A stretch of 64,000 nucleotides of DNA, from assembly GCF_002934325.1 (NCBI RefSeq), contig NZ_PTIV01000003.1, positions 1 to 64,000 of the forward strand, in the 5' to 3' direction. This document shows positions 2,524-26,670 of this stretch, in pieces. The stretch is from Marinobacter persicus (GTDB lineage Bacteria > Pseudomonadota > Gammaproteobacteria > Pseudomonadales > Oleiphilaceae). The translations under genes and the position numbers were made by a program. The notes below the pieces were generated by a model. That model saw nothing but the letters and a program-made list of their open reading frames with translations, was not told the DNA's origin and did not search any database. Numbering within the stretch: the stretch's first letter is position 1; each line of letters starts with the position of its first letter.

Positions 2524-3168
2524 ATGTCCCGCCGAACAAGGATCTGTCCGGCCGGAATTCCCCAGCACGTTATACAGCGGGGCGATAACCGGCAAACCTG
2601 CTTTCAAGGCGTCTCTGACCGTGCAACCTACTACATGTACCTTGCCCGCCACAGTAAGGCGTTCGACCTAGATGTTCATGCCTGGGTACTTATGGATAAC
2701 CATGCCCACTTACTGGTAACCCCCAACACCGACAACGCGCTTTTTCCTTTCATGAAGGCGCTATCACAAAGTTATGCCCAGTATTACAACACCAAATACA
2801 ACCGCACCGGCAAGCTCTGGGAACCACGTTATCGGGCTTGCCTGGTCGATACCGCGCCTTATTTTCTGGAATGCCAACGGTACATTGAACTGAACCCAGT
2901 GATGGGCCGGGCGGTAAGCCACCCGGACAGTTTTCAATGGTCCAGCTACGGCAGTCATGCGCGGGGCATGAAAACCCGATTTCACCAACCTCATGAATGT
3001 TACCTGGCCCTGCATGCGGAAGAGTCGGTCCGCAGGCTCAGGTATCAGCAGTTTGTTTCTGCCAAGCCACCGACAGATATGGCAGAGAAGATTCGACATG
3101 CGTTGATGTCTGGCTGGGCGCTGGGGGATGCGGAATTTAGGGAGCGGATGAGGGAGTTGGGGAGCTAG
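2524..3168 (+). CDS. REP-associated tyrosine transposase (RAYT)
   Basis: A Y1-type single-strand DNA transposase (IS200/IS605-like fold) of 214 residues. RAYT proteins are thought to mobilise or maintain REP palindromes. The HUH metal-binding motif is visible in DNHAHLLV (about residues 60-67). The expected catalytic tyrosine region is SQSYAQYYNTKYNRTG, followed by the family-typical LWEPRYRACLV and YIELNPV. AGGA at 2513-2516 favours ATG 2524 over the in-frame GTG 2521. A REP palindrome begins at the base after the stop codon, and similar palindromes occur at 13202 and 21119, which fits a RAYT and its substrates. Confidence 0.88.
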   Translation: MSRRTRICPAGIPQHVIQRGDNRQTCFQGVSDRATYYMYLARHSKAFDLDVHAWVLMDNHAHLLVTPNTDNALFPFMKALSQSYAQYYNTKYNRTGKLWEPRYRACLVDTAPYFLECQRYIELNPVMGRAVSHPDSFQWSSYGSHARGMKTRFHQPHECYLALHAEESVRRLRYQQFVSAKPPTDMAEKIRHALMSGWALGDAEFRERMRELGS

Positions 3169-22450: not shown

Positions 22451-22497
22451 GGTCATAGAGGGCTACCTCAATTGCAGCAATGAAAGGACGATTTTCT

Positions 22498-22938
22498 ATG
22501 ACGAACCTGATTCTGGCGGCAGTAGCCGCGCTGGTGGTTGGCGTTATCATCGGTGTTCTGGTGGGCCGTTCAGGCCAGGGGGCGACGTTACGCCAGCGCC
22601 GCGCCGAGCAGCAGATTGATGAGTTGCGTAGTGAGTTTACGCGCTATCAGGCTCAGGTGAATGAGCATTTCATGGAGTCTGCGCATTTGTTGCGGCGTTT
22701 CAATGATGCTTATCACGATGTAAATCAGCAGATGGCGCGCGGTGCGAACCGGCTGTGCAATGATGACGAGTGGCTTGCAGAGCTGGAGCAGAAGTCTTCG
22801 GGCCGTCTGGGCCACCGTTCCGAGGAGGAGCCATCTGAGCCGCCACGGGATTATGCGCCGAAGTCCGATACCGATGATTCCGGTATGTTGGCTGAGGACT
22901 ATGGTCTGGATAAGGAAGGTAAGAAGCAGTCTGCCTGA
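22498..22938 (+). CDS. zapG: ZapG / YhcB-family cell envelope protein
   Basis: A 146-residue inner-membrane protein (DUF1043) linked in other bacteria to the divisome and envelope synthesis. One N-terminal membrane helix (ILAAVAALVVGVIIGVLVG) precedes a coiled coil (LRQRRAEQQIDELRSEFTRY) and a disordered charged C-terminus. ATG 22498 is chosen because AAAGGA lies 8-9 bases upstream. Its place beside zapE is conserved in gammaproteobacteria. Confidence 0.88.
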   Translation: MTNLILAAVAALVVGVIIGVLVGRSGQGATLRQRRAEQQIDELRSEFTRYQAQVNEHFMESAHLLRRFNDAYHDVNQQMARGANRLCNDDEWLAELEQKSSGRLGHRSEEEPSEPPRDYAPKSDTDDSGMLAEDYGLDKEGKKQSA

Positions 22939-22986
22939 CTCGCTTGCCGCCGTTGGCCTTCCCTTGCCTATTAGCGGCGGGGGAGG

Positions 22987-23092
22987 TCAGTCCGGGAAGG
23001 CCTTTCCAAAAACCGCTACGAGCACATCCATGTGCGCTTCTCTCAGGCCATCCATGGCCTTCGAAATTTTTGGAAAGGCCTTCCCGGACTGA
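22987..23092. repeat. Cruciform-like structured repeat, copy 1
   Basis: Two perfect 26-bp inverted arms (22987-23012 and 23067-23092) enclose 54 bases. Inside are two hairpins with the same TCCA loop: GCACA-TCCA-TGTGC (23022-23035) and GGCCA-TCCA-TGGCC (23046-23059). It lies between the convergent zapG and NIF3-like genes. Copy 2 (26538-26641) shares the interior and inner stem but has a different outer stem that is still paired. Confidence 0.85.
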
Positions 23093-23200
23093 TCAATAAA
23101 ACTCTTCATAGCCTGCCTAAACTTCCTTTTAGGACTTTCTAGGCTAATCAGACTTCCTTGAACTCCCGAACTCGAGCAACATTCCCGCTAAACTTCAGGA

Positions 23201-23944
23201 TTAAACAGGGTTATCACAGTCAATGAATTGGTGATTAACACCAAATTCGTCCGCCAACGCCTTACCCAACGCCTGCACACCGTAACGCTCAGTGGCGTGA
23301 TGTCCTGCCGCAAAGTAGTGGATACCGCATTCCCGGGCAGTGTGTGTGGTCGGTTCGGAGATTTCACCGCTGATGAAGGCGTCGATACCCGCCTCAATGG
23401 CAGTGTTAATAAAGCCCTGAGCGGCACCGGTACACCAGGCGACGGTTTTGATGGTGTCCCTGCCCTCACCTACATGCAGAGGATTACGGTGTAGCGCTCG
23501 GGCAAGGTGCAGTCCAAATTTCTCCGGGCTCATGGGCTCCTTGAGCTTGCCCTGCCAGACTAGGCCGCCTAACGGTTTCGGGTTCTGGATACCGAGCACA
23601 TCAGCGAGTTGGCGGTTATTGCCATACTCGGGGTGGTCATCCAGCGGCAGGTGGTAGGCGACGAGGTTGATGTCGTTTTCCAGGAGCTGCTTGATCCGGT
23701 TCTTTTTCATGCCGCGAATGCACTGGTCCTCGCCTTTCCAGAAATAACCATGGTGCACCAGGATCATGTCGGCGTTTTGCTTGATGGCCTCGTCGATCAA
23801 TGCCTGGGAGGCGGTGACGCCCGTGATGATGGTATTGACCTCTTCCTTACCCTCAACCTGCAGGCCATTCGGGGCGTAATCCTGAAAGTTCTCTGGCTCC
23901 AGCCATTCATTGATTTTGGAGAGAATGTCGATGCGGTTTGCCAT
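23201..23944 (-). CDS. NIF3/YbgI-family protein (GTP cyclohydrolase 1 type 2-like)
   Basis: A 247-residue dinuclear-metal protein. Metal-ligand motifs are VHHGYFWKG (about residues 63-71) and the C-terminal HYFAAGHHATERYG; also visible are NGLQVEG and CTGAAQGF. Biological role is unsettled; GTP cyclohydrolase activity is reported for some relatives. ATG 23944 (MANRIDILSK) gives the family length; the longer frame runs into structured repeat copy 3. Confidence 0.9.
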   Translation of the reverse strand: MANRIDILSKINEWLEPENFQDYAPNGLQVEGKEEVNTIITGVTASQALIDEAIKQNADMILVHHGYFWKGEDQCIRGMKKNRIKQLLENDINLVAYHLPLDDHPEYGNNRQLADVLGIQNPKPLGGLVWQGKLKEPMSPEKFGLHLARALHRNPLHVGEGRDTIKTVAWCTGAAQGFINTAIEAGIDAFISGEISEPTTHTARECGIHYFAAGHHATERYGVQALGKALADEFGVNHQFIDCDNPV

Positions 23945-24010
23945 GGTGGTTGCCTCGGCCGTATTCACAGAATTAATGGAGCATGTTGGCGCGAAGAGAG
24001 CTGATAGCAA

Positions 24011-24080
24011 GGGCCAGGGATGGCCCGAAATAAGCGCACAGGGATGTGCTTGTAGCGGTTTTCGGAAACCCATCCCCGCC
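24011..24080. repeat. Cruciform-like structured repeat, copy 3 (half, inverted)
   Basis: Opposite orientation to copies 1 and 2. The two hairpins are kept, with GGGA loops on this strand: GGGCCA-GGGA-TGGCCC (24011-24026) and GCACA-GGGA-TGTGC (24036-24049). These are followed by TGTAGCGGTTTTCGGAAA, which matches one arm of the other copies. The opposite arm is absent, so the long stem cannot form. It lies in the 177-bp gap between hisC and the NIF3-like gene. Confidence 0.75.
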
Positions 24081-24121
24081 CCGCAGCCACTCAAAGGCTA
24101 AAGCGCCAGGATTTTAAGACT

Positions 24122-26496: not shown

Positions 26497-26537
26497 AACT
26501 CTAATCCTGCATGTGGATTTTTGCTTTGGGGGTATCA

Positions 26538-26641
26538 GCCATCAGGGTGGCCTTTCCAAAAACCGCTACGAGCACGTCCATGTGCGCTTCTCTCAGGCCA
26601 TCCATGGCCTTCGAAATTTTTGGAAAGGCCACCCTGACGGC
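26538..26641. repeat. Cruciform-like structured repeat, copy 2
   Basis: Arms 26538-26562 and 26617-26641 pair over 25 bp with one mismatch. The interior is identical to copy 1 apart from a G in GCACG-TCCA-TGTGC, which keeps a wobble pair. The outer stem reads CAGGGTGGCC instead of copy 1's CCGGGAAGGCC, with matching changes on the other arm. It sits inside the hisG-hisD transcript. Confidence 0.85.
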
Positions 26642-26670
26642 TTCAATTAGTTACAGTGCAAAACGCTCTG

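Follow-up and report, generated by a model that had tools for sequence, protein, structure and literature searches.

The inverted repeat at positions 22987-23092 of the window (the whole stretch of 64,000 nucleotides of Marinobacter persicus DNA analysed here) is one copy of a dispersed element. In the preferred reading, to which about even chances are given, this is a high-copy, often paired element of the TwoAYGGAY type (RF01731), probably a CsrA-binding RNA, whose stems would owe their perfect pairing to template switching. Read on the GGA strand (minus in copies 1 and 2), the element would fold into a stem of about 28 bp presenting two hairpins with A-N-GGA-Y loops, the motif to which the CsrA/RsmA dimer binds. 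The element most likely acts as a CsrA-binding RNA, sited more often after genes than before them, and transcripts crossing it on the GGA strand would carry a twin CsrA site. Template switching at replication could copy one arm onto the other, by which pairing would be kept with the sequence nearly free, and mismatches harming the GGA-strand fold would be purged. We infer that the repeat is transcribed and bound by CsrA; alternatively, the loops might be a site for a different protein, or have their role in folded DNA.

Copies of the repeat in the window

Copy 1 has the layout described in the initial annotation, i.e., two perfect arms (26/26 complementary) around a 54-nt core with two small hairpins, both of which have a TCCA loop on the plus strand (Table 1). 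Copy 2 is also real, but the span first given for it (26538-26641) was one base short at each end. Its interior and inner stem are kept as claimed (the common 82 nt are 99% identical to copy 1), and its outer stem reads CAGGGTGGCC instead of CCGGGAAGGCC, both arms being altered. The third copy mentioned there is present, but in a decayed state, with the second arm gone.

Table 1. Coordinates of the repeat copies and of their parts in the window
Feature	Position	Strand	Remarks
Copy 1, whole element (stem and core)	22987..23092	GGA strand minus (proposed RNA strand)	RF01731 match on minus, 22981-23098
Copy 1, left arm	22987..23012		26 bp
Copy 1, right arm	23067..23092		Perfect complement of left arm
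Copy 1, hairpin 1	23022..23035	minus, reads GCACAUGGAUGUGC	Loop AUGGAU
Copy 1, hairpin 2	23046..23059	minus, reads GGCCAUGGAUGGCC	
Copy 2, whole element	26537..26642	GGA strand minus	GGA strand is the sense strand of the flanking hisG and hisD frames
Copy 2, left arm	26537..26562		
Copy 2, right arm	26617..26642		25/26 complementary; sole mismatch A-C when read on plus, G-U when read on minus
Copy 2, hairpin 1	26572..26585	minus	Loop AUGGAC
Copy 2, hairpin 2	26596..26609	minus	
Copy 3, decayed	24012..24068	minus; GGA strand plus	Core and one inner arm kept, other arm lost; GGA strand antisense to hisC-nif3

Copy 1 sits between convergent open reading frames, one at 22480-22938 (+), which we take from its translation to be YhcB-like, and one with its stop at 23201 (-), presumably nif3 by the same reasoning. 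Copy 2 occupies the gap that separates hisG from hisD, and copy 3 that between hisC and nif3 (the names hisG, hisD and hisC are likewise assumed from the translations). Copy 3 lies where the nif3 reading frame is extended upstream (23945-24094, minus strand), and too early a start there would append a false repeat-derived N-terminus.

The repeat copies in the window are beyond chance. The hairpin-1 pattern with at most 3 mismatches occurs 3 times against 0.00 expected, and copy 1 with its flanks folds with z = -9.1 on the plus strand and -8.8 on the minus strand, 0 of 200 shuffles being as good. A scan of the window against Rfam gave no match at the gathering score.

Copy number, spread and anatomy

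The genome of the window holds the repeat at about 45 places (51 BLAST matches with the common 82 nt, minus 6 self-matches of 14 nt between arms), some of which are halves of interrupted copies. A covariance model and a search of relatives had been proposed in the initial annotation; the model, built from 23 copies of this genome, yielded 11-115 matches per genome in 15 congeners (150 candidates per genome were scored). The repeat is thus multi-copy throughout these relatives, and the occurrence of single copies only, named earlier as contrary evidence, was not observed. Under strict filters, 77 of the 293 genomes searched in the order had a match, representing 34 of 118 genera. The exact core pattern occurs in at least 115 stretches of named genomes, and the 80 listed among them are all from Marinobacter save one, from Idiomarina aquatica. 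In this species, two Marinobacter-like copies face inward as a pair (L257, 2478-2739). No description of the repeat in Marinobacter was recognised in the portions of the literature that the search returned; two other CsrA-related sRNAs in Alcanivorax are reported in an excerpt of PMC9788540.

The main set comprises 296 distinct elements from 205 loci, collected with a finder that imposes hairpin 2, and a broader second finder imposes both loops. Since both finders demand near-perfect arms, copies with strong mismatching are under-represented. Seven elements near locus ends were dropped from flank analyses, leaving 289, and nine more had no called gene on both sides, leaving 280. Genes were called by our own hexamer script, and 26 of the 280 elements share more than 60 nt with a called gene.

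On the GGA strand, the order of parts is motif, stem, core, stem, motif. The stem extends over about 28 bp: Watson-Crick pairing in the 289 elements is 90% at pair 26 and 72% at pair 28, and drops to 45% at pair 29, 31% at pair 30 and 19-35% further out. Its sequence is locus-specific save for an inner consensus and G-G at pairs 17-18 (87%). The flanking motifs on the GGA strand are near GACtAtatCtccaAAGTTtGa (weak) and CCCCcAAACtagCAGGCTAGG (the latter in about 57%), and neither is recognisable as a sigma-70 promoter.

Both GGA-strand loops have the form A-N-GGA-Y. In hairpin 1, the GGA is 98-100% conserved and N is variable (195 cores, for which the finder imposed hairpin 2 only). Across the repeat, loop base N is frequently A, G or C in place of U. 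The base pair adjoining the loop in hairpins 1 and 2 is G-T on the TCC strand in 75 and 76 cases and A-C in 0 (323 cores). This is the reverse of the bias among the arm mismatches, as expected if an open hexaloop on the GGA strand includes these bases, but a wobble on the TCC strand would look identical. A second core type (type B) exists beside type A.

Similarity to TwoAYGGAY and the proposed role of CsrA

Whether the family had been described was left as a question by the initial annotation. The repeat does resemble Rfam TwoAYGGAY, but the window copies score under its cut-off. In a search of 241 bases, the RF01731 model matched copy 1 on the minus strand with 39.1 bits (E = 4.1e-5) over all 168 positions, the cut-off being 43. 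A search of 20 loci (61 kb) at E up to 1 gave 7 matches in 6 loci and none in L001, the locus that holds copy 1. The best match, a sister copy from the same genome, reached 42.6 bits, again under the cut-off of 43; in its alignment with RF01731, the two loops and the outer stem coincide with those of the model. At E<=0.001, there were 130 matches in 15 of 16 genomes and in 0 of 14 control genomes, part of any such score being contributed by the long stem. The cut-off was exceeded at 7 places in 6 of the 16 genomes (best 49.8 bits). Ten of the 130 matches were compared by coordinates, and these are repeat elements on the GGA strand; one of the seven places over the cut-off, G013:C1:1535833-1535963 (44.6 bits), corresponds to the copy that L037 carries at its hisC-nif3 site. 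Fast-filter runs (20 loci; 140 kb) gave nothing over the cut-off, the 140-kb run including L196, which holds a 43.8-bit place.

On the minus strand, copies 1 and 2 present A-Y-GGA-Y loops within an outer stem (AUGGAU/AUGGAC, AUGGAU). The window copies thus have TwoAYGGAY-like anatomy and lie below the score for formal membership. The family as excerpted in PMC2864571 shares with the repeat two A-Y-GGA-Y hairpin loops enclosed by a long outer stem whose sequence is poorly conserved. In contrast to it, the second loop base of the Marinobacter repeat is N and not only Y, and the repeat occurs in dozens per genome, many as inward-facing pairs. The same excerpt (Weinberg 2010) lists TwoAYGGAY, which comes from human gut, gamma-Proteobacteria and Clostridiales, among the probable RNAs and regards it as probably not cis-regulatory. 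Gardner and Eldai, in the excerpt of PMC4333381, report that TwoAYGGAY has two strong matches to the CsrA motif and suggest that it binds CsrA.

One csrA match is present in each of the 16 genomes. The RsmE/CsrA consensus is A/U-CANGGANG-U/A, and paired GGA hairpin loops, by which CsrA-binding RNAs are recognised, are found in the repeat. RsmZ (RF00166) exceeded its cut-off in 0 of 16 genomes, with weak matches in 2. The CsrA-sequestering RNAs of the CsrB/RsmX/Y/Z type, which are encoded by one or few sRNA genes, also carry paired GGA hairpin loops; unlike them, the Marinobacter repeat is scattered as many elements with two sites each. By this similarity, a little-studied Rfam family becomes a high-copy feature of a cultivable genus, in which the proposed CsrA link could be tested directly.

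Paired arm changes and template switching

Among the 23 copies from the genome of the window, 164 cells were changed on both sides of the stem against a shuffle mean of 41.5 (0 of 500 shuffles as high), slid controls giving 22-37 cells. This is the statistical check of covariation suggested in the initial annotation. Between related species, the arms of copies at orthologous sites diverge with pairing kept; independent variation of the arms, which had been named as an argument against the claim, was not seen there. With orthology taken from BLAST of the flanks, by which some pairs may match a neighbouring element, and with orthologous copies not independent, close orthologues (78 non-redundant pairs, arm difference <=0.3) showed 79 paired changes of transition type, 93 of transversion type and 50 one-sided changes. 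The corresponding counts were 11, 12 and 14 at an arm difference <=0.1 (39 pairs), and 121, 148 and 63 when core-inverted pairs were included (94 pairs).

A route via G-U should produce mostly transitions. Paired transversions are about as common as transitions, so templated copying fits better than stepwise repair through G-U, and template switching is proposed here as the cause of the perfect stems. Compared with the transition share of 61% published for rRNA, the share in the repeat gave p = 8e-5 at <=0.3 and p = 0.2 at <=0.1, where changes were too few. According to an excerpt of PMC8794818, template switching can keep stems perfect, and the RNA hairpins maintained in this way resemble the repeat in that stem changes hit both arms together. 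They differ from it in that the perfect-pair regions of rRNA are called very short in that excerpt, against stems of about 28 bp in the Marinobacter repeat, and in the transition share (61% there, 46% here). Hundreds of natural stems of about 28 bp provide a test of how pairing is kept amid sequence drift in long RNA stems.

Strong homogenisation of cores within a genome was considered and rejected, since core identity is 0.874 within a genome and 0.860 at orthologous places. Where the arms are similar, orthologous places reach 0.927, and all other comparisons give 0.840 (148 cores, each 54 nt long).

Strand-biased mismatches

Leftover mismatches in the first 22 pairs of the 296 elements are strongly biased. 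Read on the TCC strand, there are 74 A-C against 8 G-T, 24 C-T against 2 A-G and 7 C-C against 0 G-G, the remainder being 3 of other kinds and a further 2 with N. At mismatches, G is nearly always retained on the GGA strand (as G-U, G-A or G-G). The two arms contribute alike (34 and 28). In the first 26 pairs of 280 elements, the bias is 36:1 where the GGA strand is sense to the genes and 31:1 where it is antisense, 34:5 in convergent gaps and 11:2 in divergent gaps. Among 60 independent neighbourhoods, 34 lean the same way, 2 lean the opposite way and 1 is a tie (sign test, p = 1.9e-8). The ratio is 6:1 in other genera (25 elements), and terminator-like hairpins in the same DNA, used as a yardstick, give 11:5 (65 hairpins).

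This bias points to a constraint on the folded GGA strand. Raw mutation alone is expected to yield G-U, G-A and G-G in certain proportions, and the observed mix is about as it predicts, with no sign that wobble itself is favoured. The initial annotation offered selection on pairing and equalisation of the arms by copying as two possibilities; both seem to apply, the paired transitions and transversions speaking for copying and the biased mismatches for constraint on one strand.

Inward-facing pairs and placement relative to genes

Elements less than 250 bp apart have their TCC cores facing inward in 58 of 58 distinct pairs, which represent 18 independent neighbourhoods of uniform orientation; the genome of the window contributes 9 of 9. 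At spacings of 250-700 bp, 2 pairs were inward and 2 were not. With the broader finder (<=300 bp), inward and other arrangements stand at 54:1 in the genus, 25:0 on named contigs and 1:1 in other genera, and the rule might fail outside the genus. In two comparisons (L107 with L124; L095 with L194), an inward-facing pair seems to have been turned round as a unit with respect to the genes beside it, its arms being nearly or fully identical. Inversion of a core between unchanged arms was also considered and rejected, the closest cases being such inversions of whole pairs; 493 'inverted' pairs were set aside.

In loci L106-L205, elements occupy 53 convergent and 22 divergent gaps, against 57 and 155 among element-free gaps of at least 60 bp (odds ratio 6.6, p = 5e-11) and 174 and 207 among all gaps (odds ratio 2.9, p = 8e-5). 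Isolated copies between codirectional genes showed no significant orientation (63 sense, 44 antisense, p = 0.08), and no leading-strand bias was found in loci over 9 kb (87 of 178). This lack of preferred orientation to genes weakens a simple mRNA role, and the flanking motifs, in which no promoter was recognised, also count against the RNA reading. Ten of 20 distinct decayed copies lie between codirectional genes (4 sense, 6 antisense, too few for a comparison).

The CsrA-binding RNA reading leaves the inward-pair rule without explanation. An extended form of it, which we consider unlikely, is a distributed CsrA network: the dispersed RNA repeats would act as a collective sponge at the ends of many genes, above all convergent ones, the inward pairs would give every crossing transcript exactly one GGA-strand twin site in either direction, and the stems would be rewritten by template switching, leaving the sequence free to drift but not the structure.

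Alternative explanations

The main rival, rather unlikely in our estimate, is a mobile palindrome acting at the DNA level (REP/REPIN/BIME- or MITE-like), in which a transposase or recombinase acts on the folded single GGA strand, and an RNA function, if there is one, is a side effect. The many copies, mostly intergenic and scarce in divergent gaps, agree with it, as do their lack of significant orientation to genes or replication, the inward-facing pairs, the conserved flanking motifs beyond the stem and one empty/filled site with a 6-bp direct repeat. However, the empty site may also reflect a deletion, orthologous sites are occupied with locus-specific arms, the core identities give no strong sign of recent spread, and the strand-biased mismatches in old copies require constraint after insertion. 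Nor does a mobilising enzyme stand out: none of the 36 called genes between copies 250-1600 bp apart looks transposase-like (by eye, first 120 residues), all resembling ordinary genes, and at E<=0.001 the Y1 transposase domain PF01797 has no match in 8 of the 16 genomes, including six with 56-88 repeat matches. REP/RAYT as a required partner was therefore rejected, element-rich genomes being among those without a match, and the presence of PF01797 does not track repeat copy number. REP, REPIN and BIME sequences are likewise intergenic palindromes of high copy number that form inverted doublets, and compensatory changes on either side of a REPIN hairpin are noted in an excerpt of PMC3116915. 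A REP is defined in the excerpt of PMC8266576 as a palindrome of 20-50 nt after a conserved tetranucleotide, mostly GTAG. On the GGA strand of the repeat, GTAG does not stand 5' of the hairpin; it lies 3' of hairpin 1 in type A and is lacking in type B. As the initial annotation held, the repeat is unlike REP palindromes: the four-way-junction layout with variable 28-bp arms, the position of GTAG and the independence of a Y1 transposase gene all misfit. MITEs have fixed terminal inverted repeats and a target duplication; here the arms differ between loci, and one direct repeat of 6 bp is seen, at the one empty/filled site.

The long stem itself could do the work, as a bidirectional terminator or an mRNA-stabilising hairpin at 3' ends. 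The enrichment between convergent genes and the highly stable fold on either strand agree with such an element, but TTTT begins within 12 nt past the stem in 0 of 289 elements on the GGA strand, i.e., the T-run that follows the GC-rich hairpin of an intrinsic terminator is lacking on this strand. It would also leave the conserved loops, the strand bias and the free-sequence stem of fixed length unaccounted for, and is judged quite improbable. Passive palindromes, kept perfect by template switching alone and devoid of function, are more doubtful still and seem highly improbable: the near equality of paired transversions and transitions and the mechanism excerpted from PMC8794818 would suit them, but not the hairpin-1 loop, conserved though not imposed by the finder, nor the abrupt stem end at about 28 bp, the GG at pairs 17-18, the mismatch strand bias and the inward-pair rule.

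Gene content, empty sites and core variants

The window contains at 2563-2889 (+) a gene with a Y1 (REP-associated type) transposase domain, PF01797, which is matched in 8 of the 16 genomes. The empty/filled site was found between L044 and L045 (90.5% identity in the best alignment), and the empty site keeps both flanking motifs. This is most simply read as loss of the hairpin by deletion, with insertion as a less simple alternative. L043 seemingly retains outer arms only (by eye); its genome, the congener G029, yields just 11 matches, and what look by eye like remnants of outer arms at two sites give the impression that the repeat is being lost throughout this genome. In L017, L021 and L023, which belong to the genome of the window and lie near contig ends, other DNA with a common end sequence splits the element in the hairpin-1 loop, and this loop looks like an insertion-sequence target.

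Two variants of the core were observed. About 80 extra hairpin-rich nt in hairpin 1 give cores of 133-138 nt in L010, L020, L026, L028, L034 and L035, and the same variant occurs in L040, L074, L114, L118 and L121, recurring at differing loci and in differing species. A further subtype, which escaped the first finder, has hairpin 2 on a GCAGC/GCTGC stem with unchanged loops (L184, L166, L124, L122 and L067).
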